Part shown: piece after piece, positions 2,261 through 56,204 of the stretch
Numbering within the stretch: position 1 is the first letter of the stretch
How the letters are laid out: every line of letters begins with the position of its first letter
DNA from: Rhyzopertha dominica
Taxonomy: Eukaryota > Arthropoda > Insecta > Coleoptera > Bostrichidae
Assembly: GCA_025024175.1 (NCBI GenBank)
Contig: QCXZ01000041.1
Span: 45,565,786-45,629,785, forward strand
Length of the DNA: 64,000 nucleotides
Direction: 5' to 3'
Translations under genes and position numbers: made by a program
The notes under the pieces: model-generated
The model's input: the letters and a program-made list of their open reading frames with translations, nothing else
Databases searched by the model: none
Told to the model about the DNA's origin: nothing

Positions 2261-3284
2261 TTAACATTAACAGAGGAATCACTTAATCTTGTTGTTTGGC
2301 TCGGCAATAGTTGTGCTGGCATTGTTTTGTTCACTCTAGTAATTTTCACTTGTACAACGGAAATTTCAGGTAGTGGTTTGTTCTTTCTTACTCTGTTACG
2401 AACGAGCGATACCAGTCGATGTAGTGATCACATATTATATTTTTAATCTTTAGTATCAATTCCGTGATGCACTTACCCTCAACTTACCCTAGTGTCTGGA
2501 GCTTGTTTCTATATAATTATTATGATAAGAACATCGCTGCAATACGTTAGTAACTAAAAAGAAATGATTAATAGTCTATCAAATTAAAATTCTGAGCTAA
2601 TCGTTGATACGATAGTTGGCACACTTGTTTATGTTATTGTCTTTGATTTTGATAATCTCCGCCAATCTCCGATTGCTAGCCCTGGTAGAGACAGACAACA
2701 CAAGTTAGTAATCTTTGTGACCTATCGTCTCTTGGTTATTTTCGAAAGCTTGCAATATTTGTCCAATATTTCATTGAAGTAAAGTAAAGGAATATAGGTG
2801 TTCTCCATTCCCGTTGCCACATGTGCAAGGATGATATACCTTGTAAATAATAATTGAACAATGAGTGGTGGTAGGTAGGGTTACATGTATCGAATGAACT
2901 TCTTGTTTTAGGTATCAATATTCTTTGATATTTCATTGGAAAATATCCGTCCATTCATTGAAGTCTCCATACCTTTAATATTATCAGAAACGTCGTTAGC
3001 AATTCTAACCCAGGACAAGTAAAAGTCTTATAAAATGTACATTACATTATTTATTTATTTACTTATCTACTGAACGAAATGTTTTCTTCGAGAAAGACAT
3101 CTCATAAACTGAGCAGGTAAAATAAAGCAATTTTACTTTAAACATACCAGACGTGCATTATTTAAAATATGAACATTTGTATCTCAATAGCAAATTATAA
3201 AGGTGCACGGCAATCAATTACAGTTAAATTTAAATCTGGTTAGCTGTGATTAAAGCTTCTTAGTATTTTTAGCTTTAGTTCATA
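2261..3284. other. gene-free stretch
   Basis: AT-rich DNA with no coding motif or clear repeat found. Confidence 0.55.
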
Positions 3285-3600
3285 CAGCACGGCATAGAAC
3301 TGCTTTTGCCTGTGTACCGTAGTTGAATACAGGTCACTTCCTCTTGGAAGTGTTTGGGAAGTAAGTTCCACTGAGACAGCTAAGTGACTTTGTTATCATG
3401 CCAGTTTATTGCTGACAAATGGATCGTCATCTACTTTTTTCTAACATCATACCACTGCATTGTTAGGCAAAAGCAGTTCTATGCCATGTTGTCTGCACTA
3501 AACCTAAACTGCACTGATGAGCTTTAATAGAAACGAAACAGATCTTCCTGCAGTTGATTGCGGTACAGACAGTATAGCAAACAAACCATATATTTCAAGT
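3285..3600 (+). repeat. hammerhead-ribozyme repeat, decayed copy with inverted arm
   Basis: Second copy of the 54.5-kb ribozyme repeat. Shared sequence starts near 3442 (acatcataccactgc) and runs to about 3580. The core CTGATGA (3514-3520) and GAAA (3535-3538) is intact. The 7-bp inner helix I is perfect: AACTGCA 3507-3513 against TGCAGTT 3549-3555. Helix II is damaged (GCT against AAC) and helix III is largely lost (ACA against TTC), so self-cleavage is doubtful. At 3285-3312 lies an inverted copy of the outer arm (cagcacggcatagaactgc), which can pair with 3465-3492 across about 150 bases. Non-coding; the mechanism of spread is unknown. Confidence 0.7.
3507..3555 (+). ncRNA. degenerate type I hammerhead ribozyme motif
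   Basis: Order: helix I strand 3507-3513, CUGAUGA 3514-3520, helix II region 3521-3534, GAAA 3535-3538, helix III region to 3547, candidate cleavage base C3548, helix I strand 3549-3555. The 15.1-16.1 pair is A-C instead of A-U and only one helix III pair remains. A fossil of the ribozyme seen intact at 54513-54561. Confidence 0.6.
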
Positions 3601-5399: not shown

Positions 5400-7253
5400 A
5401 GAAGAAAGCATATGACCAATTCTTAGGTAACTCGGTTAATAAATCTAGGGATGCCTGGAAATTTGAACGAAACCGTAGCAATCAAAAAGTAAATACCGAC
5501 ATTTCTTGTGATGAGTTTAACAACTTTTTTGCTCTATAGCAGGAAAAATAGTAAGTTCAAATAAACTGGATTCTCTTCCAACCTTATGTAAATCTTCAAC
5601 CCACAGTTTGAATAGGCATTCATTCTATTTGGCACCAGTAGCATAAGACGAAATCAGAAATGTAATTTGTAACCTAAACAATTCGAAATGTGATATTTTC
5701 GATCTAGATTCTTTAATACTTAAATCGTCTGAACATGTAGTGACCCCATTTATAACGGAGCTCATAAATAATTGTTTTTCATCTGGAGTTTTTTCTGATA
5801 AGTGCCAAAGTTATCTCAATTTTAAAAAACCAAACAAAAAAATGTTGAAAACTACAGGCCCATTGCAATAATTCCCATCTTAGGTAAAATTATTAAAATT
5901 TTAGTTAAATATAGATTGCTCAGATTCTTTGAAAAACATAATTTTCTAAGCAACAGTCAGTTCGGTTTCAGACGCGGCCGTTCTACAATCAGCGCTCCCC
6001 GAGAAGTGGTGGATCGTATAGTCGGAAATCTGGATGGGGGACATACAGTGGCTGCGGTGCTTTGTGACTCAAGTAGGGCCTTTGACTGCGTGTCTCACAC
6101 TATTCTGTTACATAAGCTCCAGCTTTATGGTATTAGAGGCATCCCGTTAAAGTTCTTTGAATCATATCTACAAAACAGGAGGCAGATAGTATACTCAAAC
6201 AACAAACTTTCTAAAATCGGAAAATTACACTACGGCGTACCCCAAGGCTCGGTGCTTGGACCATTACTGTTTATTATATATATTAATGATTTCTCTCTGC
6301 ATATATCACCTCTTCAAAACATATTATATGCGGATGATGCAACCTTACTTTTCACTTCAAAAAACCGTAATGAGATTAATATTAAATGTAAAGAAGGACT
6401 GAGTAAATCAGTAAACTAAAAAAAATAACAAGAGTTATCTAAAAGGGGACAACGTAAAACTTCTAGGATTGATAATTGATGATGGGTTAAAATGGAATTA
6501 TCACATTGATGAGATGTGCAGAAAAATCTCCAGCCAACTCTTTTTGCTCCGACAACTTAAAAAGTTACTCAATTTCAACAATTTAGTTACTACATATTTT
6601 TCACTAATTCACAGTCTTCTCAGCTATGGTGTTCTTCTTTGGGGAAATGCATCTCAGTCAATAAGGGTGTTCAAACTTCAGAAAACAGCAGTGAGGATTT
6701 TGGGAGGATTATCACAATGCGAAAGTTGTAGAGCTTTGTTTCACAAATTATGCATTATGTCCTTACCTGCAATGTATATTTATTCAACTGTAATTGAAAT
6801 ACACCAATTAAATAACCGTCAAACCCACGGTGAATTACATGGTTACAACACAACACGAACGAATCTTTTAATAACTACAAGGTACAATTTTGTGTCCTTG
6901 GACAAGAATTGCCTGAATTTGAGGATCTACAACAAGCTCAAAACCACTACGAAGCTCATGCAGCGCAACCAGTTCAAGTTAACTGTCAAAATTTTTTAAA
7001 AGATAATGTTTTTATACCATCAATGAATTCCTAGAATCAAAAATATCTATATAATTTAGGAACAGTGTCCCATGCTGTAATGTAATGTAATGTGTTGCAA
7101 TGAAATGTGTATATTAATGTAAAGCTTTATTTTGCTAAAGTTGTAAATCTTGTCTATTTACTGTTAAGTGTTGATGTAGTGACATGCAACAAACAATTAT
7201 CATTTTGTAATATTGTGAATAAATACTATCTATCTATTTATCTATCTAGTTTA
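5400..7253 (+). mobile_element. LINE (CR1/Jockey-type non-LTR retrotransposon), 5'-truncated
   Basis: The element holds decayed upstream reverse-transcriptase linker sequence (about 5400-5915), the polymerase core (5916-6419), the thumb and C-terminal part (6469-6999), a short 3' UTR and a tail. The tail is an ATCT/TATC run at 7226-7248 directly after aataaatac. Such short microsatellite 3' ends are usual for CR1/Jockey-group LINEs. No endonuclease domain is visible, so the copy is 5'-truncated. Confidence 0.8.
5430..6999 (+). pseudogene. LINE ORF2 reverse transcriptase, broken
   Basis: Enzyme of target-primed reverse transcription. Motifs in order: SQFGFRRGRST, then DSSRAFDCVSH (aspartate of motif A region), GVPQGSVLGPLLF (the conserved PQG block) and YADDATLL (catalytic YADD, near 6325). 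A frameshift and stop at 6417-6468 separate the core from the C-terminal part, which starts LLGLIIDDGLKWNYHID and contains YGVLLWGN. Upstream, traces such as DAWKFERN and SCDEFNNFF lie between stops and shifts. Clearly LINE polymerase; the exact clade (CR1, Jockey or relative) is not settled from sequence alone. Confidence 0.85.
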
Positions 7254-11690: not shown

Positions 11691-11892
11691 ATCTTTTAAT
11701 TACACAAATACCTACGAAGCCTGTGTGCTTAAAAAATATAAGAATATAAAAATTTGTGTTGTTTATATATTTTATATATATTAGCTCTCCCTGTTTTATA
11801 GTAGAAATCTAGGTGTCAATGCCATCTGTCAGCATTACGCTAATATGACAAATCACCTAGCTGCCCTAACGGCTAATATTTCCTAAAACAAG

Positions 11893-11970
11893 TGACCTGA
11901 TGAGCTATAATGATAGCAAAATATATCTATCTGCAGATGGTTCGGTGCAGACAGCACAGCACAGACATTT
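11893..11970 (+). repeat. hammerhead-ribozyme repeat, decayed 3' part
   Basis: Third copy of the family. CTGATGA 11897-11903, helix II GCT 904-906 with AGC 915-917 and the same 8-base loop size, helix III ATA 921-923 with TAT 928-930, then C931 and TGCAG. The outer right arm gtgcagacagcacagcac follows. The essential G12 is A (11918), and the upstream helix I strand has been replaced, so this copy should be inactive. Confidence 0.65.
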
Positions 11971-16954: not shown

Positions 16955-17122
16955 CGTCGGTTGGAATTGCTTCCTATCGTTTCGCTAGCACGAGTGGCAA
17001 GCTTCTTCAGAGGTCCTTCCATCTCCGGTGCTGGAGGTATACGTAATGACGTAGATCGAAAGACCTCTGAAGAAGCTTGCCACTCGTGCTAGCGAAACGT
17101 TAGGAAGCAATTCAAACCGACG
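16955..17122. repeat. 61-bp inverted repeat with Penelope-type hammerhead-like arms
   Basis: Arms 16955-17015 and 17062-17122 match at 59 of 61 positions around a 46-base centre. Each arm carries CTGAAGA, a stem-forming segment and GAAAC (right arm: 17067-17073, 17075-17093 and 17094-17098). Sequences of this type are known to me as dispersed arthropod repeats linked to Penelope-like termini; that link is recalled, not tested. The centre shows no coding. Confidence 0.8.
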
Positions 17123-20700: not shown

Positions 20701-21770
20701 CAGCGGCAGAAAAAACGATCCAGACGTATTTTTTAATATACTTGTTTCTGTTGGAAATGCATCGTGTCGCTATTTGTCCTTAATGTATGAAACTGTTTAA
20801 CAAAGAAGGTAAAAAAGAGACAGAAATAGTGTTTGGACTCGTTCTCTTTTATTTTTTTACAGCGTCGTTTTAACTGTGTTGCTCCTTCTAAACGTTTACA
20901 TCAAAGCATCTCTGGATCGACCTCTAGATAGAAAACATTCGTTAGGTATTTGTCAATTACCTACTGTCATGCTGATAAACAGCTGAAAATCATTGCTAAA
21001 ATGATTTTGAGTGTAACAGACTCAACAAAAGCAATTGCTTCATTTCAAGACGAGCAGTCCCAGTGTTATGCGGCTAGGGTGTTGAAGATTTCGAGATGTA
21101 GTGTTCAGCGAGCATTAAATTGATTCAGAGAAACAGGAGCATACCCAAGAAAAGTTGGGTCGGGCATAAGAAGATGTACAAATCACCAAGATGAACACTT
21201 TATGACGCTAAGAGTGTTGCTTAACAGGGACAGTACTACAATTGGGGTGAGGAATGAATTGGAGGAGTTGAGAGGAATAGCTGTAAGTAAAAGAACTGTA
21301 AGGAGAAGGTTGAAGGAGTATGGATTAAGTGCAAGAAGACCAGCAAACGGTACAAAATCAACCAGGGGTCACCGATTTGAACGACTTCGCTTCGCCAGAG
21401 AACATCGCAACTGGGGCATTGAGGAATGGAGCAAAGATCTGTTCAGCGATGAATATAGATTTTGTCTCCGATCACCAGATAATCGGCAGCGAGTATGGAG
21501 ACGAATTGAAGAAAGATTTGCACAATGCGATATTATTCCAAGGCTTAGCCATGGGGGTGTCTCGATAATGGTGTGGGGAGGTATTGGTGTTGAAGCTCGA
21601 ACGGAATTAGTGGTGGTTCATGGAAACAGACTGAATTCGGATACGTACATTCGCGATATCTTGGAGCCACATGTTGTTCCTTTTGCTCCATCTGTCGGCT
21701 AAAACTTTTGGTTTATGCAAGATAACGCCCGTCCTCACGTTGCACGCATGGTAAATGAATTAAAATTTTC
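20701..21770 (+). mobile_element. Tc1-type transposon nested in the mariner-like element, 3'-truncated
   Basis: The left end starts about cagcggcagaaaaaacgatc (20701). The right boundary near 21770 is where mariner-like sequence resumes, and the Tc1 3' third is gone. No right terminal repeat could be found. The transposase pseudogene lies at 21001-21770. Confidence 0.65.
21001..21770 (+). pseudogene. Tc1 transposase, two stops and truncated
   Basis: From the ATG at 21001 one frame runs to 21702 with a single internal TGA at about 21121 (RALN*FRETGAY, most likely a CGA to TGA change). It shows the helix-turn-helix part (VLKISRCSVQRAL), the second DNA-binding helix (ISVSKRTVRRRLKEYGLSARRP-like) and the catalytic FSDEYRFCL (first aspartate, about 21445). 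It also has GGVSIMVWGGIG and, past a second stop (TAA 21700), MQDNARPHVAR with the second aspartate. The glutamate-bearing end (SPDLNPIEH in relatives) is missing. The frame is otherwise remarkably intact, so decay is fairly recent. Confidence 0.85.
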
Positions 21771-31530: not shown

Positions 31531-34032
31531 ACATGATTTAAAAAAAACTTCTAGCTGCAGGAAATAATTTTATACTTTTTTTACTAGCAACTATATTTAT
31601 TAAGAGGACGTAGACAAAACAATGTTTCATTATTGTGAAAAGCTCTCTTCATTGCTCGTTTATTGCAAGCTCGCCCTGCGGCCTGCGACACTTTTCATCA
31701 AATAACTATTACTGGTTGTTCTTATTTCTGTCAATATATAAGAATAACCTTATGTTGTAAATTAATCCCTCTACGAATCTATTACCACCCTTTGAGTCCT
31801 TTCAGAGAAGAAATTAAGAAACAGCATACTCTAAACTTCAAAAAGTACGATGTGCCGTATACACAAGACTTTTAGATAGCCGTATATTTTTAGCCAACCC
31901 TTAGATCTAAGATCCCGTAGGCTTCAATATCAATATCTCGCGCGATGCAAAGTTAAATTAGAAGGCAGGGCGTAAACCTAAATAAACACATTTCGCAGGC
32001 AAGCACAACAACGCGAAATAATAGTATGTAAATTATTTCGTTGTACAGCAGCAGTGTTCGTCTGATTCCGTAATTACTAATTCTAGGGGAAGCCTTTTAA
32101 CTGGTGGATTAATATCGAACCGCGTATTCAAATTTTCACCGCCCGACGGCGCAGCACAGCGGACGGTTTTTGCTTGAACGGAGAAAACACAAAGGAACCA
32201 AGAGGGCACAACTTGTTGACAGGAAAATGCAGGGGAATACGTTTCCCGCCGCGACGAGAACTTGCATGGAAATGCTGCACAGAAACTTTTCAACCATTGA
32301 AGTCGATTGTGTTCACTGTTTCTTGAGCTTTGTGAACTCAGAATCGATAGGAAATTGCACATCAAACCAAGTAATAATATATCACAAAGAAGTAAAAACT
32401 TTCAATCATCCACACGTGTATAAAAAGGAAATTCTTAAGAGAGTCGATTGTACTAAATGAGGTAACGTGCTATTGAATGAAATTTTCGTAAAATCCATAG
32501 TGTCATCTGAAATGACACACCCACACTTGTCGAATAACGATTTATTAATCAGTTACTTCGCAAGTATAACGCACACATCGCTTTATTATTACGAAGCGGA
32601 ATAATATCTGAATAAATGCCTCTCCTCTGTCACTTGCCTTCCGATTCAATGAAGCATTCACTGGGCGCATTACGTGAGCGATTCAAGGACCTTCAAAATA
32701 GATATACTAATAAAACATGCAATAACCGAACTACTGAGGTGCTGGGGATGCAGTCTTGGCAAAGGCGCGGTAATATATGTATTTATATATATTATTATAA
32801 TTAATTTTGGAGCTGTCACTGCCCCTTCTAGTTAATTTTCTTAAAAATATCATTAAAGCTGTTTCAATTGCGGATTATAAGCAAAACGGTTATGTCTTGT
32901 CTACCTTACAATCGCAAAATCGGTAAAAAAGTGGGATAACTTCACAGCTAAAGTTTAGAAGAATATTGTTTTTATTTCTAATTCACTTACACGCTTACAT
33001 ATACAGTTAAAAATTTGTTTTTTGTTAACTGAAATAATAAAACTTTTAGAAATTATAAGGCATTAAAAATTAAATGGATCTGGGACATGAAAAGAGATAA
33101 ATATCAGCATTTTGCAGTGCATAGTTTCAAACTTCTGATTTATTCCAAACATACCAGTTAAAAAACTTAAAAAAGACGTTTTTGTTTTTAGTGCAAATAA
33201 AGAAAAAAGTGTTAGTGTAACCAATAACTAGAATTAGTTCTATGTAAAATGCATGTCTATGCTGTGCTGTCTAAAAATAGCAGAAATAAACAAAAGATTA
33301 TGTTTCTAGTTGCTAGTACCCTAAAGTAACAGATTCAGGTAGTTAGGTACATATAAACATTATTGTAATTATTGTAGTTAATTATTGTAAGTATTTTGTC
33401 AATAATATTCAACTGATATTTAATTAAATTAGTGACAACTGATGTAGCTGATCAAAGAATAACCGCTTGCCGGCGGTAAAATTATTGTGATGTTATATAG
33501 TTCAGAAAGTACGGGTTATTTGTTTTAGTTAAATAACGCATATTTGGATTATTTTTAAGATCCGCAAAAAAAACAGTGCTGAAGCTGCAACAACGGCAGA
33601 TGAAAAAGATTCAACTTTTGTTTCATTTATTTGACCATTTACAAAAGAAATGGTAACTACAACTGATTGTTATGACCTATTAATGTTTTAAAAAAGCATG
33701 CTCCTATGTATTTATTGCAACTAAATTTTTCTTTAATCTTTACAAGCGTGTCTGCTTCATGCTTGCAAAAGGTAAAATGAAATTTTTATAAGATTGGCTC
33801 GTTTATTTGTAGTTGTTGCAGCTTTAGGCATATAGTTTCTATTGTCTAAGAGACTTTAAAAAATTACACTTTATGTGCATTTTTTAAGAATTTCAGATTT
33901 CGTTTGAGTACCAATTATTGCTTATGAATGTGGGGCTAATCCTTGCATTAACTTTGTAGGATTTAATTTCTGCTGAATCTCAGGAATACAATGAGATAGA
34001 GCTCCATTCATTTGATACCAACAATTATCACA
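31531..34032. other. gene-free interval
   Basis: 31890-32460 has somewhat raised GC and opposing frames without motifs. 33249-33277 carries an isolated arm of the hammerhead repeat (atgcatgtctatgctgtgct) in reverse orientation. Otherwise AT-rich. Confidence 0.4.
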
Positions 34033-34574: not shown

Positions 34575-34772
34575 TGGCAGTGCTTACTTAAATTTTGATT
34601 AATTCCCGTCGTTGCTTAATTTGCCGTATTTGTTTTCCATTGAGTATAGCTCGAGATTGTAGTTCGCCCAATTTTCCCATATCCAGTATATCAGTGAGGC
34701 ATACCGCCTTTTTTGTCGCTCGGTAAAAACTTGTTTGTTGGCTCCTCTAGTGTTCAGTTTTACTTCTGAACG

Positions 34773-37700
34773 ATGGCCAATAAATCGGAACGCAGGCTGT
34801 CAAAGCTTATAGCAAAGCGAGAAAATTTATTTCGTCGTACACAAATAACGTACGACACAGCAAAACTTTTAGAACAGGATTTAAGTAACCAAACTAATTT
34901 GAAAAATTTTGAAATTCGTGTCATTACTATGCCTCAAACGATAACAGAGTACAATAATATCGTTGATGAAATCATTGACATTGAACAAGAGCTTTCACCC
35001 GATTATGTCCCAAATTATGCCAGTCTTGAAGTATTTCAAGAACTTTGTAATCATATTAATTATATATCGAACAAGATAAAAGGCAATCAGACATCTACCA
35101 GTGCCGTCGAGTCGCGTGTTAAGTTACCTAAAGTTGAACTTATGAAATTCAATGGTGAAGATTTATCTTTATGGCCGCTGTTTTATGAAAACTTTAAAAA
35201 CTTGATTCATTTTAAAGAGTTTTCTAACGCAGAAAAGCTCCAATATTTGCTAGGTAGTTTGTGTGGAAAATCATTAAAATGTGTTTCGTCTATTGAGCCC
35301 TTACCAGAAAATTATGAGATTATCTGGAAATTATTAGAGGAGACTTATCAAGATCGTAAATACTTGGCTGCTTTGTACCTCGATAAATTGTTGTCATTTC
35401 GCCCTGCTTCTAGTGTCCAATCGCACACTTTGCAGACATTTCTAGAACAATTTGATACCAACGTTACCGCATTAAAGCGCCTAAAGTTAGAAAATTTGAC
35501 AGATTTTATCTTTACCCACATAGCGATGTCGAAATTACCACAGGAATTTGTTAATACTTTCGAATTAGTTGAAAACGATGATGAAATACCTACGTATGAC
35601 AAGTTTCTCAAATTTATTAAGCACCAAAGTAAAGTTTTACCCAGAAATGACAAGCAAAAGGCCGTTAGTAACATTAATCATAGATTTAGCAAAACCTTTG
35701 TGACGCAAAGTCAACCCAATAATCATTGTGTAGCGTGCAAGAAATCATTTCATTTACTCGTTGATTGTAAGTATTTTAAGGATTTAAACCCAGATCAGAG
35801 ATTTCAGATCGTTAAAGATAACAATCTTTGTATTAACTGTTTTTCCAGTAAGCATAAATTATTATCATGTACCTCGAGATTTTCCTGCACTATTTGTAAA
35901 TTAAAGCACCATACTTTGTTACACCGCAATACTCTTAAAGACAAGACTAATAACGATCTCCAAAATAGCGCTTCTTCTTCAAAAGATGTACAAATTCTTT
36001 GTAGCACAATATCGAAGTCTATAAAGCCCACTATTGTTCTTTTGTCTACTGCACAAGTAAACGTTGTTGACAGATGGAATAAAATGCAAACAATTCGAGT
36101 TTTGATAGATAGCGGTTCTATGTCCAATTTATTAACAATTGATTGTTGCAAAGCATTAGGCTTACCTTATGAAAAGATATCATCTAATATTTCCGGTGTT
36201 GGTGGTAACTGTCAATTAGTTAAAGGTAAATGTAATATAGTAATATCATCTCGTGTAGATCGTTCAGCCAAGTATGGCTTTGAAGTTTTGTTAGTAGATA
36301 AAATAACAAACCAGTTGCCAGAAGTTCCAGTTAAACTGAACTCGTTAGATTACCTCCAAAATTTACAACTCGCCGATCCAACTTTTCATATACCAGGGAA
36401 TATTCAAGGAATACTCGGTGCCAACGTGTTCGCTAGCATTATAAGATCCCATCACGTAAAAGATTCTTCAACTACCGCACTGGACACCAGCCTAGGCTAC
36501 ATAGTAATGGGTAAGGCATCCACAAGTGAGGCTTTTATCGATAGTTTTTCCAAATCCAGTCATACATTTCTTGCGGTAAATCCCCTTGTTACAATACCCC
36601 GTGCTATTCATTTAACCACTCCAACTCGTAAAGAAGAAGATCCCATCTGCGAATCATTTTTTATACAAACGGTAAAACGTAATCCTGATACAGGACGTTA
36701 TGCTGTTGCCCTACCCTTTAGCGATGATCCTGCGAAATTAGGAAATTCGTATACTTATGCTCAAAATCGTTTATTTTCACTAGAAAAGCGTTTGCACAGA
36801 AACCCTGATCTTAAAGTTGTTTATGCCAATATCTTACGAGATTATATAGATCAGGGGCATATGTCTCTGATACTAGAAGATGATTCAACAATGCCTTCTT
36901 ACTATATTCCACATCATTGTATTTTCAAGCAAAGTTCGTCAACCCCCTGTAGAATAGTTTTCGACGCATCCATGAAAACTGAAAATGGGTTTTCTTTAAA
37001 TGATATCCTTTATACAGGACCCAAGTTACAAAACGATCTTCTACGCATTTTATTAATGTTCCGATTATTTCCGGTAGCAGTAACTGCAGACATCAGACAA
37101 ATGTACCGTCAAATTAATCTTATTGAAGAACATCGTCGGTTCCAAAGGATTCTATGGAGATTTGACGAGACCTCCTCTGTTTCCATCTATGAGTTAAACA
37201 CAGTTACATTTGGGGTCAAATCTTCACCGTACCTTAGTCTTCGTACTATTAAACAGTTAGTTGATGACGAAGGAGCATTATATCCAGAAGCAGTATCTCT
37301 TGTGACCAAAACTTTATATATTGATGACCTGATTTGTAGCTTACCGGATGTCGACAATGCTGTTACAGCCCATTTTTCTCTAGTTAATTTGTTTAATTCT
37401 GGCGGTTTCCAAATGGTAAAGTGGATGTCTAATTCCTCCGAGTTTTTGTCCCAAATTCCAAACCATTATAAGTTGATAGAGAATTTAGATTTTGCTCGCG
37501 ACGATTTGTGTGTGTTAGGCCTTTTTTGGAATCCAAACACTGATACATTTTCTTTTAAGATAGACATGAAAATGGTCGATCCAACTAAACGCAATATGCT
37601 ATCAATAGTAGCCCGCATATTCGACCCATTAAATTTCTTAGCTCCTGTTACTTTGTTTGTAAAGTTACTTATAAAAAGATGTTGGGCATTAAAATTGGAT

Positions 37701-39851
37701 TGGGATGACCCTGCACCTAAAACTATCCGAGAATTGTGGTACATCTTCCAAAAAGAGTTGCATTTGCTTAATACTATCAAAATTCCCCGACATTTAAACG
37801 TGTTTTCAGACACCTTGATCACTTTAATTGGTTTTAGTGATGCGAGTCCGGTAGCGTATGGTTGCGTAATCTACTGCAAAGTTGTTTTGCCACAACAAAT
37901 TCCCAAGGTATTCCTTTTGATCGCAAAATCTAAAGTATCTCCTTCACCCGAACTAACTTTACCTAAATTAGAGCTCTCTGCCGCCGCGTTGTTGGCAAAA
38001 CAGCTAAGGTTCTTAAAAGATACTTACGGTGATCGCATTCACAAGATATATGCTTTCTCCGATTCCACTATAACGTTAGGATGGATTAATTCTCAACCTC
38101 AAAAATGCAAACCCTTCATTTCTAATAGAATCTCGCAGATTCATCAGAATATATCTCCTGATTGTTGGTTTTTTGTCCCTGGCAAAGAAAACGCTGCTGA
38201 TTGTGTTTCCAGAAGTTTGACACCCTCCCAACTAGTAAAAAATGAAACGTGGTTTTCTGGGCCCCAGTGGTTGGGTTTAGATTTCTATCAGTGGCCTGTT
38301 AAAGCTGTTTCTGACTTGAATTCCCCTTCCATAACGGATGAAAATCGTGTTCTTATTGCCACAGAACAAGAAGAATCAAGTTTGTATAACTTGATTAATC
38401 GTTTTTCTTCTTGGTCTAAACTTTTAAATTCAACGGTCTATGTTTTGCGTTTTTTGAAAATTTTGCCTAACCATAGCAGTATAAGCAATGATGATTTATG
38501 CGTTGCTGAAACATATCTAATTCGAGCAGTGCAGCAGAAACATTTTGCAGAGTTATACCTTTCGTTGGAAAAATCAACAATTTTGTCAAATTCTAAATTA
38601 AGAAAATTACATCCATTCATGCATAACAAAGTAATTAGAGTAGGTGGTCGATTATCAAATGCAAATATTAAATTTGATCAAAAGCATCCCATATTATTAC
38701 CCAAATCTGATCCGTTTGTGAGCTTGCTTGTTGATTATTACCATAAAAAATACTGCCACGCTGGAGCTCATCTTTTACAATCATTATTATACCAAAATTA
38801 CTGGATTTTGTCAGCCCGTAGTATGATTCGCCAACGCGTTTGGAAATGCAACACTTGTTTTAAAATAAATCCTAAGCCTATTTATCCTTTTATGGCAGAT
38901 TTACCCTCTGAACGTGTGAATTGCGCTAAAGCCTTTTTAGCGACCGGTGTAGATTACACGGGAGCATTTTCAATTACCATGTCTCGTTACAGGGGTGTAA
39001 AAAGCCAGAAGGCTTATATTTGTCTGTTTATATGCCTGTCTACTAAGGCCATTCATTTAGAACTGGCTTCGGATCTGTCCTCTGATGCTTTTATATCTGC
39101 CTTTAAACGTTTCATATCCCGAAGAGGGAACTGCGCTACTCTCTTCTCTGATTGTGGCACAAACTTTGTCGGTGCAAAAACAAAACTTGATGAAATCTAT
39201 CAGTTAACTCAAAGTCGCGGATTCCAAGATGCTTTTCAAAGAGAATTAAATTCCTTCAAAATTACATGGAAATTTAATCCACCATCATCTCCTTGGATGG
39301 GCGGATTTTGGGAATCCAATATTAAAAGCGTCAAAACCCACTTGAGTCGAGTCATAGGAAACCAGATTTTAACTTACGAAGAGTTTTACACTGTTCTAAC
39401 CCAGATCGAAGCAGTTTTGAATTCGAGACCATTATGTTTACTTAGTACTGATCCTTCTGATCCTGTTGCATTAACTCCAGCCCACTTTTTGTATGGATCG
39501 CCAGTAGCGTCATTACCCGTTGAACATTTTAATGACAAATCACCAAAGGGTTTACTTAATCGTTATAAATTATTAGATTCTTTAGTACAGCATTATTGGA
39601 AGCGATGGTGTCAAGAATACTTATTTACATTGCAGTCCCGTCAAAAATGGAATACAATAACCAACCCCCCATCAGAAGGAATGATCGTTATTATTATTCA
39701 TGATAATCTTCCACCATTGAATTGGCCTTTAGCTGTCATAGAACGTTTATATCCTGGCAAAGACGGCACTGCTAGAGTTGCCCTAGTGAAAACTAGGACA
39801 GGCTCTTACGTACGACCTGTTGCAAAGTTATGTCCTTTGCCGAACCAATAG
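34773..39851 (+). CDS. gag-pol: BEL/Pao Gag-Pol polyprotein
   Basis: Uninterrupted 1692-codon frame, a normal size for BEL/Pao. Order: Gag with the PKVELMKFNGE region (DUF1759-type, from about residue 116) and cysteine-histidine knuckles (C319-C322, C353-x2-C, C372-x2-C). Next come the aspartic protease (VLIDSGS, D446) and the reverse transcriptase (CRIVFDAS at 726; catalytic YIDD 849-852). RNase H follows (FSDAS, D1023; later FSDST and ENAADCVSR). The integrase has a zinc-binding H-C region near 1323 and catalytic D1394, D1460 and E1514 (VDYTG, FSDCGTNF, GFWES). The C-terminal domain matches the DUF5641 type (LNWPLAVIERLYPGKDG). The start is ATG in cgATGGCC. All catalytic residues I looked for are present, so the element appears able to make every activity needed for its own copying. 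Reading frames on the other strand are shadows. Confidence 0.96.
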   Translation: MANKSERRLSKLIAKRENLFRRTQITYDTAKLLEQDLSNQTNLKNFEIRVITMPQTITEYNNIVDEIIDIEQELSPDYVPNYASLEVFQELCNHINYISNKIKGNQTSTSAVESRVKLPKVELMKFNGEDLSLWPLFYENFKNLIHFKEFSNAEKLQYLLGSLCGKSLKCVSSIEPLPENYEIIWKLLEETYQDRKYLAALYLDKLLSFRPASSVQSHTLQTFLEQFDTNVTALKRLKLENLTDFIFTHIAMSKLPQEFVNTFELVENDDEIPTYDKFLKFIKHQSKVLPRNDKQKAVSNINHRFSKTFVTQSQPNNHCVACKKSFHLLVDCKYFKDLNPDQRFQIVKDNNLCINCFSSKHKLLSCTSRFSCTICKLKHHTLLHRNTLKDKTNNDLQNSASSSKDVQILCSTISKSIKPTIVLLSTAQVNVVDRWNKMQTIRVLIDSGSMSNLLTIDCCKALGLPYEKISSNISGVGGNCQLVKGKCNIVISSRVDRSAKYGFEVLLVDKITNQLPEVPVKLNSLDYLQNLQLADPTFHIPGNIQGILGANVFASIIRSHHVKDSSTTALDTSLGYIVMGKASTSEAFIDSFSKSSHTFLAVNPLVTIPRAIHLTTPTRKEEDPICESFFIQTVKRNPDTGRYAVALPFSDDPAKLGNSYTYAQNRLFSLEKRLHRNPDLKVVYANILRDYIDQGHMSLILEDDSTMPSYYIPHHCIFKQSSSTPCRIVFDASMKTENGFSLNDILYTGPKLQNDLLRILLMFRLFPVAVTADIRQMYRQINLIEEHRRFQRILWRFDETSSVSIYELNTVTFGVKSSPYLSLRTIKQLVDDEGALYPEAVSLVTKTLYIDDLICSLPDVDNAVTAHFSLVNLFNSGGFQMVKWMSNSSEFLSQIPNHYKLIENLDFARDDLCVLGLFWNPNTDTFSFKIDMKMVDPTKRNMLSIVARIFDPLNFLAPVTLFVKLLIKRCWALKLDWDDPAPKTIRELWYIFQKELHLLNTIKIPRHLNVFSDTLITLIGFSDASPVAYGCVIYCKVVLPQQIPKVFLLIAKSKVSPSPELTLPKLELSAAALLAKQLRFLKDTYGDRIHKIYAFSDSTITLGWINSQPQKCKPFISNRISQIHQNISPDCWFFVPGKENAADCVSRSLTPSQLVKNETWFSGPQWLGLDFYQWPVKAVSDLNSPSITDENRVLIATEQEESSLYNLINRFSSWSKLLNSTVYVLRFLKILPNHSSISNDDLCVAETYLIRAVQQKHFAELYLSLEKSTILSNSKLRKLHPFMHNKVIRVGGRLSNANIKFDQKHPILLPKSDPFVSLLVDYYHKKYCHAGAHLLQSLLYQNYWILSARSMIRQRVWKCNTCFKINPKPIYPFMADLPSERVNCAKAFLATGVDYTGAFSITMSRYRGVKSQKAYICLFICLSTKAIHLELASDLSSDAFISAFKRFISRRGNCATLFSDCGTNFVGAKTKLDEIYQLTQSRGFQDAFQRELNSFKITWKFNPPSSPWMGGFWESNIKSVKTHLSRVIGNQILTYEEFYTVLTQIEAVLNSRPLCLLSTDPSDPVALTPAHFLYGSPVASLPVEHFNDKSPKGLLNRYKLLDSLVQHYWKRWCQEYLFTLQSRQKWNTITNPPSEGMIVIIIHDNLPPLNWPLAVIERLYPGKDGTARVALVKTRTGSYVRPVAKLCPLPNQ

Positions 39852-54298: not shown

Positions 54299-54439
54299 TA
54301 TTAAGGAAACGAAAGAATCTCTAAACGGCTCCAAATTTCTATAGTTTCCATCAAAAGGTCAAATGACAAATGCGCTAGTTGTAAACTGTGCATTACGTTT
54401 TGTTCTGGCATTTATTTTAAATTGTGAGATTTATTGCGT

Positions 54440-54595
54440 TTTATTACATCATACCATTGCTTTGTTATATAGGCAAAACCAGATCTATGCTGTGCTGTCT
54501 GCACTAGACCTAAACTGCACTGATGAGCTTTAATGATAGCGAAATAGATCTATCTGCAGTTGGTTGCGGTGCAGGTAGCACAGCATAGACATGCA
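54440..54595 (+). repeat. hammerhead-ribozyme repeat, best copy
   Basis: The left part (acatcataccattgctttg, from about 54446) is shared with the 3.4-kb copy. The right end is tagcacagcatagacatgca. Together with copies at 3.3-3.6 and 11.9 kb and single arms near 3285 and 33249, this is a dispersed family. No coding. The whole repeat is about 150 bp; true boundaries need more copies. Confidence 0.8.
54485..54588 (+). ncRNA. type I hammerhead ribozyme with extended helix I
   Basis: Inner helix I: 54513-54519 (AACUGCA) pairs with 54555-54561 (UGCAGUU), 7 of 7. Core CUGAUGA 54520-54526. Helix II GCU 527-529 with AGC 538-540, loop of 8. GAA 541-543. Helix III AUA 544-546 with UAU 551-553, loop GAUC; A15.1-U16.1 is kept. 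The cleavage base is C54554. Outer helix I: CUGCAC 499-504 with GUGCAG 569-574 (6 of 6), and CUAUGCUGUGCU 485-496 with AGCACAGCAUAG 577-588 (12 of 12). The asymmetric internal loop of 8 and 7 bases in helix I lies where the tertiary contact with loop II is expected. All invariant core bases are present. Known relatives: short-helix-III hammerheads in Penelope-like elements, small circular retrozymes and some insect satellites. Activity is inferred, not shown. Confidence 0.85.
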
Positions 54596-54599
54596 TTTT

Positions 54600-56204
54600 A
54601 ATTTATTACGTTTTGATAATTATTATTTCAAGTTTTAGCCAGCGCGATCGTTGTTTTAGCCAATGCAACTAGCGTCACATAAAAAATATCAAATAGATTA
54701 ATTTGACATTACATTACTAATTTAGTCATAACAGGAACGTAATTAAAACCAATTCACCCTAATTTTTGGTACCACAGTATCAGTGATTTGTGCTTGATCA
54801 CTTATTGCTGCTGAAAGATATGTTGCTAATTTGATACTTATGTTGTTGCTTTTTGTTAACACTTTTAAGAAGAACTAGTTGCTATTAGACTGAATCTTTC
54901 TCTTTTGAGTGGATGATTTTACAAACTAATGTTTAAATGCAACTCATAAGGCATACGCACAATTCACTGCACTGCTATAGCAATATAATTCTTAACTGTT
55001 ATTCGAATGAACCTCATTAACTAGTAAATGCTAAAACGGTGTTACCCAAATTGCCATAAAAGCCAATAGCCACATTTGTTGGCTATTTTGCACGCATCTG
55101 TAACATTAAAGACGATTTATTGTGGCAGTGGATTGTCGCGTTGGTACTTCTGTACGTGCAACAACGAACTGACAGATTTTTTTTTCTGGACGGCTAAATT
55201 TCGGACCAGCGTTAATAACGGCCTGACCTGTGATCGTTTACGCCCGCTTGCGTCCATAACATAATTTTTCGTCGGGAGCATTCACCGGATTAATTTGTGT
55301 GAATTAACATCAACGGCGCGCGATTATACTTTGAACCGAATTTATCTTCCTCTGTTTTAGCGGGCGATATTTATGGGAGCACGGAACAAAACAAGCATAT
55401 GGGCTTTGTCCCATTTATAACATCCATTTATTAGGTGTGTATCGTTAATGTAAAGTCAAACATACAAATGCCGGTGACACATGGGGAGCCTTCGGATCAT
55501 ATTTTCCGGCCTTTCNCCGAACGTTTATTGTGTGATTTATTTTTGTCCTGTGTGCTTTCTGGCCTGCTTGTTTTTCCGATATTTATGTTTGAAACGATGG
55601 CGGAATTTTAAAAACGCATTCGTCATTCGTGTCAGTCATGTTAGGTAACTTGCGGAGCACGGCCGGCAATGAAGCGTGAACCATTGAGAGCTGTTGTGGA
55701 AGTCTCTACGTGCTTATGATATTTGTTGTAGCGTCCGATGAAACCACTTTCGCACTCCTGAAGTTCAGGGTACTTCAACAAAAAAAAACCGCTGGAAATT
55801 GAATCAATACTTCCAAATCCAATTGTCAAAATTACAATTAAGTTTTTATTTTTTATACTATAGGATTAGTAATCAGGTTTTGAGCATATTTTCTCTCTAC
55901 ACATTTTTGCTAAGACAAACAGTCCTCGTGATATTAGCAAAAATATATAAATTTTAAAATCTGTTTTTTCCAAATAACTCGAAAATTATTAATTTAAGTG
56001 CTTTCTGATCAGAAATTTGATTATTTTAAAAAAATCGTACGAGCAGTGTACAAAATAGGTTTTTTGGAAAAATTTCGAAAATGTCAAAATTTTGGATAAA
56101 TTTTCTAAGACACATTCTATAATAAAATGATAATGTAATCATTATGTAATCTTGTGAATCTCTGTGTAATATTTGCGCAAACTTCGCAATCTTAATATAA
56201 TCAC
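54600..56204. other. gene-free interval with GC-elevated island 55080-55680
   Basis: The island contains gtccataacataat, ggattaatttgtgtgaattaac, gatatttatgggagc, atccatttattagg and gaacgtttattgtg: several homeodomain, Abd-B or caudal-like words. No coding frame with motifs. The strongest regulatory candidate in the window by motif density. Confidence 0.4.

Follow-up and report, generated by a model that had tools for sequence, protein, structure and literature searches.

What carries the hammerhead ribozyme at positions 54485-54588 of a 64,000-nt stretch of the Rhyzopertha dominica genome (called the window here; A+T-rich, GC 35%), and which enzyme placed it there? A sequence-only reading of the locus had proposed a complete type I hammerhead within a dispersed repeat. 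Our answer, to which we give a probability of roughly 0.7, is that the segment comes from a non-LTR retrozyme, of which it forms the hammerhead-bearing part, and that retrozyme RNA would be copied into DNA by the enzyme of another element, in a paired-priming cycle of Penelope-like elements (PLEs). Retrozymes are reported from many invertebrates, insects being named among them (PMC7229834). The same paper proposed PLEs as the retrozyme engine on three grounds: type I hammerheads are found in both, both form tandem copies, and the two are present side by side in the genomes that it analysed. Animal retrozymes have no enzyme of their own, and here the insertion record of a single genome points to one by its architecture.

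Hammerhead ribozyme and carrier unit in the window

The repeat unit is 351 nt long, as read from the tandem copies L010, L013 and L028. The features in the window are given below with unit coordinates and, in brackets, the basis of each assignment; P1 and P2 denote two fixed ends found in the family.

54447..54602, plus strand: window retrozyme copy, a 156-bp part-unit from P2 to P1, unit 196-351 (alignment to the L013 natural unit)
54447..54455, plus strand: sequence just 3' of P2, CATCATACC, unit 196-204, at which the window copy starts (outward-end census)
54596..54602, plus strand: P1 end TTTTAAT, unit 345-351, in the family the fixed start of one cDNA arm (outward-end census)
54430..54446, plus strand: probable left target-site duplication (by eye)
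54602..54618, plus strand: probable right target-site duplication (by eye)
54485..54588, plus strand: type I hammerhead ribozyme with a 20-bp outer helix I (descriptor scan, fold, family covariation)
54520..54526, plus strand: conserved core CUGAUGA (sequence)
54527..54540, plus strand: helix II and its loop (sequence, family copies)
54541..54553, plus strand: GAA and helix III with loop GAUC (sequence, pairs re-checked)
54554, plus strand: predicted cleavage after C54554, unit 303 (position in the hammerhead fold)
3231..3579: older family copy in two opposite-sense pieces, 3231-3318 on the minus and 3353-3579 on the plus strand (alignment)
11800..11968: older two-armed copy with a minus and a plus arm (alignment)
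33245..33272, minus strand: 28-bp fragment, unit 322-349 (alignment)

The core positions are as the sequence-only reading had placed them, and the pairs of inner helix I (54513-54519/54555-54561), helix II (54527-54529/54538-54540, 8-nt loop) and helix III (54544-54546/54551-54553, preceded by GAA at 54541-54543) held when they were re-checked. An internal loop (54505-54512 / 54562-54568) separates the inner part of helix I from the outer part (54485-54504/54569-54588). The outer stem is 20 bp long because two G.U pairs (54497-54498 with 54575-54576), which are also paired in the computed fold, connect its 6-bp and 12-bp segments. The earlier description of these two segments as perfect is correct for the window copy. 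The perfect 12 bp belongs to this copy and not to the family at large: unit pair 240-331 is a C.A mismatch in 83 of 98 near-full copies and T-A in 10. At the fourth helix II pair the window copy has U.U, in place of the G-C or A-U seen in most of the family.

All the marks of type I are present at the site, namely the complete core, three helices, an open helix I and the H17 cleavage base. When a strict descriptor was applied, requiring the full core, at least 5 bp in helix I and at least 3 in helices II and III, it matched once on the two strands of the window, at this very site, and none of 200 dinucleotide shuffles had a match. The site strand is much more stable than shuffles (fold energy z = -6.73). 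The computed minimum-energy fold of the window copy (-49.9 kcal/mol) does not fully coincide with the hammerhead, which comes to -46.3 kcal/mol with tertiary contacts left out; imposing it costs 3.6 kcal/mol relative to the minimum, equally in the window copy and in the circular unit. The check by covariance model that had been suggested for this locus counts against it. In a permissive cmscan the best match was Hammerhead_HH9 with 24 bits (E 0.15) against a gathering score of 52, so the Rfam cut-off was not reached, and the site is absent from the matches of a genome search with RF00163, in which only 74 of 57,767 candidates were scored. This cut-off is a criterion of sensitivity and not of structure, and the catalytic core is identical to that of Hammerhead_HH9 and Hammerhead_1. 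Rfam by itself would miss the window hammerhead, and as a sole test it was rejected as too weak for this retrozyme family. It was concluded that the window hammerhead is a real type I hammerhead by structure, with cleavage predicted.

Over 54444-54606 the window copy aligns to the L013 natural unit at 94.5%. P1 lies 48 nt past the predicted cleavage site and P2 156 nt upstream of P1. The other arm of two-armed copies has its fixed start at P2; in the window P2 forms the 5' end of a single-armed copy. The duplications on the two sides have decayed, with 14 of 17 bases identical by eye. The copy at 3231-3579 is older (about 78% identity) and its hammerhead is degenerate. At 11800-11968 the minus arm has its outward end at unit 193 (P2) and the plus arm ends at unit 341 (near P1).

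Family copies, covariation and known relatives

The dispersed nature of the repeat was borne out in the window's own genome (479 Mb, 138 contigs), in which the exact 35-nt catalytic core occurs 1,230 times (605 + 625) and the reversed pattern not once; the pattern leaves position 279 free and takes C or T at 286. A DNA search with 54440-54640 gave 1,023 candidates, and the 40 that were scored are the window copy and 39 others at 90-96% identity. Measured over 77 copies, distance from the column majority has a median of 0.040, and the window copy stands at 0.053. L018 and L030 are alike over nearly all of their 3 kb. A 28-letter core pattern had no match in viral contigs.

In two helical pairs both partner bases change together among 98 near-full copies. 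Helix II pair 279-286 is G-C in 67, A-U in 23 and otherwise in 8, with 74 of the 98 copies fitting the core pattern that restricts position 286 to C or T. Outer helix I pair 250-321 is G-C in 61, A-U in 27 and otherwise in 10. The two pairs vary separately, since G-C is found at both in 33 copies, a change at 250-321 only in 26 and at 279-286 only in 22. Helices I and II are therefore kept by compensatory change, with one G-C/A-U double change each. Rows of inner helix I were left out of this evidence, and a substitution-rate measure of core conservation was discarded because most copies had been chosen by the core pattern. We also observed that unit 316 (window 54567), in the internal loop of helix I, tracks the helix II variant, being A with G-C in 62 copies and C with A-U in 23. 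This correlation fits a loop-loop contact, and it may instead reflect linkage or a subfamily marker.

The carrier had not looked like a known element to the sequence-only reading. The repeat fits the published description of metazoan non-LTR retrozymes (PMC7229834). Like those, the window family is a short repeat with a type I hammerhead, present in many copies and also in tandem, flanked by duplications of more than 4 bp and with no protein of its own implied; its 351-nt unit falls within their range of 150-450 nt. Unlike the retrozyme arrays described there, most loci here are insertions of one or two arms that start at two fixed points. The short helix III had been taken as a pointer to animal retrozymes and PLEs, and we judge that it was a good one. 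The satellite pDo500 of Dolichopoda also carries hammerheads in an insect repeat (PMC2837043, PMC2808323), but is described as satellite DNA, whereas the copies here lie dispersed, as insertions flanked by target-site duplications.

The same genome contains another type I hammerhead family (L001-L008), distinct from that of the window and with a stronger score with Rfam Hammerhead_1 (RF00163). The RF00163 search listed at least 25 matches, at least 22 of them over the cut-off, with 74 of 57,767 candidates scored. We rejected these matches as relatives of the window family on the eight loci compared, which belong to the other one. The eight loci are alike around the ribozyme, and inspection by eye showed no PLE-like reading frame there. 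Among the matches listed, none of the 25 RF00163 places lies within 10 kb of a GIY-YIG match (the nearest, by eye, at about 12 kb).

Insertion ends and target sites

Sixty loci on contig C1 were taken in list order. They contain 62 of the 100 core places listed (of 1,230 in all); one listed place in the sampled stretch (L013) was left out of the 60 loci, and the other 37 lie outside the sample. At 38 of the 60 loci the element consists of two opposite-sense arms joined head to head, with the 3' direction of the RNA pointing outward at both ends. The 98 outward 3' ends are far from evenly placed: a margin of 12 nt around unit 351 (P1) takes in 46 of them, the same margin around unit 195 (P2) another 37, and 15 lie elsewhere, whereas uniform ends would put about 14 of 98 inside the two intervals together. 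The 5' ends of the 22 single-armed loci scatter, with 4 of the 22 within 10 nt of unit 196.

The ends are also paired. By the 12-nt criterion, the 38 two-armed elements comprise 29 P1/P2, one P2/P2, no P1/P1 and eight with at least one other end. In a second set of 30 loci (L009-L038), chosen by similarity to the window, 17 are two-armed, with 13 P1/P2 and four P1/other. One element is shared between the sets (L036 = L044), and therefore 41 of 42 distinct, fully assigned elements have one P1 and one P2 end. Tiling counts L013 as single-armed and L011 as P1/other; the junctions show both to be two-armed with ends near P1 and P2, and the counts were left unchanged. P2/P2 insertions are under-detected because the 60 loci were chosen by an intact core just upstream of P1, and the informative part of the pairing is the absence of P1/P1.

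Same-strand runs longer than one unit (351 nt) occur in 12 of the 60 elements, so that tandem occurrence is found in a minority, and 13 of the 37 P2 arms continue through the predicted cleavage site. Such elements must have been copied from a circle or an uncut multimer and not from a cleaved linear monomer. The inner junctions vary between loci. Read from the copies, the family has two fixed internal starts of reverse transcription, extension of both target strands and head-to-head arms, which are the marks of PLE insertion.

Exact flanking repeats of at least 9 bp (runs cut at 14) were found in 25 of 60 elements compared with 5 of 600 mismatched pairs. When scoring was anchored at P1, a duplication score of at least 7 was reached by 35 of 46 P1-ended elements and by 25 of 290 mismatched pairs. 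Of 30 duplications scoring at least 8, 22 are 12-14 bp long. On their 5' side, A stands at position -2 in 25 of 30 and C or A at -1 in 24; on the 3' side, G or T stands at +1 in 23, and T at +2 in 20 and at +3 in 21. The duplications sit between AA(C/A) and (G/T)TT, in a window that is itself A+T-rich. A dimer cutting both strands would be expected to leave target sides mirrored in this way.

Source of the enzyme and alternative routes

The retrozyme itself is not a PLE, because its 351-nt unit is too small for the frame with reverse transcriptase and GIY-YIG domains that an autonomous PLE holds within the element. The same genome has at least 144 GIY-YIG matches (150 scored of 2,080 candidates), with open frames up to 864 aa. 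Judged by the GIY-YIG domain, these genes probably belong to PLEs; 12 of 14 control genomes of bacteria and archaea also contain the GIY-YIG family, and among retroelement subclasses the domain is described as unshared outside PLEs (PMC12910113). Where GIY-YIG matches lie within 6 kb of each other, 20 of the 21 close pairs among the matches listed are head-to-head and one is a tandem pair 2,780 bp apart. The tandem genes are those at L099 and G000:C53:16176300-16180400, one of them with the 864-aa frame. A 181-base stretch of the latter gene is rich in A and C and has a single open frame. This PLE fragment has no clear sequence in common with the retrozyme; a 9-mer that it shares with the P2 site is the best match (E 0.36) and is kept as an idea only. 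L015:2941-2988, which matches the PLE fragment at 88% and stops at position 54 of that fragment, may be a PLE end, although a search for a repeat beside it found none longer than 8 bp.

PLE biochemistry and PLE copies offer a close comparison. Purified anole PLE protein is reported to cut and extend both target strands, with a preference for ATT, and to start at two adjacent internal RNA sites, the stretch between which forms the tail of PLE copies; its hammerhead was dispensable for insertion in vitro (PMC11167929). Penelope copies of Adineta are described as bearing an inverted terminal repeat and, in some cases, a tail, with duplications of 8, 9 or 10 bp (PMC3846280). According to these sources, PLEs share with the retrozyme the head-to-head inverted end, two starts of reverse transcription, short duplications, extension of both strands and, in many, a hammerhead. 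They differ in that the retrozyme is a non-autonomous unit of 351 nt with duplications mostly of 12-14 bp. The two anole starts lie near each other, with a tail of 30-40 bp, and are alike on both strands, whereas those of the retrozyme are 156 nt apart and strictly paired. The PLE hammerhead is minimal, whereas that of the retrozyme has full helices and loops. Retrozyme insertions look like the PLE layout with more widely spaced starts. The layout shared by retrozymes and GIY-YIG genes, together with PLE biochemistry, supports PLEs as the engine, by an architectural link.

In the cycle that we propose, tandem retrozyme units would be transcribed and the hammerhead, to go by its motif, would cut the RNA after unit C303. 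By analogy with retrozyme biology, monomers would be ligated to 351-nt circles, or multimers would remain uncut. The putative PLE reverse transcriptase/GIY-YIG endonuclease, probably as a dimer, would cut AA(C/A)^~13 bp^(G/T)TT on both strands. One target 3' end would be extended on retrozyme RNA from P1 and the other from P2, and the two cDNA arms, of varying length and some more than once round, would be joined head to head. We think it reasonably probable that PLE proteins insert animal retrozymes in general by such paired, two-site target-primed reverse transcription: a symmetric dimer would make cuts about 13 bp apart and use a different fixed start on each strand, leaving one P1 and one P2 end, and the PLE tail and inverted terminal repeat would follow from the same rule. 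The odd ends of PLEs would then become a testable rule of one start per target strand. In the part of the open-licence literature consulted, we found no description of retrozyme insertion by such a rule of two fixed starts and two arms.

Head-to-head arms within a duplication could also be left by a LINE-type reverse transcriptase through twin priming of the ordinary kind, the second target end then priming anywhere on the RNA. RVT_1-type non-LTR sequences are present in the window, and the overlap of 1-7 nt at the junctions of 17 of the 38 two-armed elements suits this route. Twin priming, however, predicts a scattered second start, but P2 is fixed (37 of 98 ends against 15 at neither site) and P1/P1 is 0 of 38. 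The P1 end had no poly-A or simple-repeat tail in the junctions examined, and the GIY-YIG genes are arranged in the same way as the retrozymes. We regard this explanation as unlikely. Snap-back self-priming of cDNA or antisense RNA, suggested for Adineta Penelope and published as an origin of PLE inverted repeats (PMC3846280), or a source RNA that was already inverted, would be another origin of the inverted copies. The arms do end within 8 nt of each other at three of 38 junctions (L042, L044 and L067), but within 20 nt in unit coordinates at only six of 38, against 4.4 expected if the ends were independent. A single inverted source is excluded because the junctions vary by locus, and self-priming leaves the second fixed outer end with its duplication unexplained; we consider this route very unlikely.

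It might finally be argued that the locus is an old satellite, or that its hammerhead arose by chance or is dead and plays no part in spread; the Rfam score of 24 bits, the U.U pair in helix II and the distance of about 5% from the column majority speak for this. Against this stand the empty shuffles, the 1,230 core copies and the two compensatory pairs, and, against a satellite, the dispersed insertions with duplications. To this explanation we give hardly any weight. The window copy may be inactive, and the retrozyme family, judged from its copies, does not look dead. We therefore keep to PLE-driven insertion of a non-LTR retrozyme as the reading of the locus.

Other mobile elements were also seen in the window. 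A 1,693-aa open frame at 34770-39851 has Pao peptidase, DUF1759 and DUF5641 domains and by this domain content is a BEL/Pao-type retrotransposon with an uninterrupted frame. Non-LTR reverse transcriptase remains lie at 5826-6999 (RVT_1, 87 bits, 5826-6416) and Tc3-like transposase remains at 21124-21702 (46 bits). The Pao-type polyprotein and the Tc3-like transposase suit an insect or other invertebrate host. At 16982-17095 there is a long, near-perfect inverted repeat that matches mir-3688 on both strands (59.5 and 57.6 bits, cut-off 84); it is probably the hairpin of a mobile element and not a microRNA.
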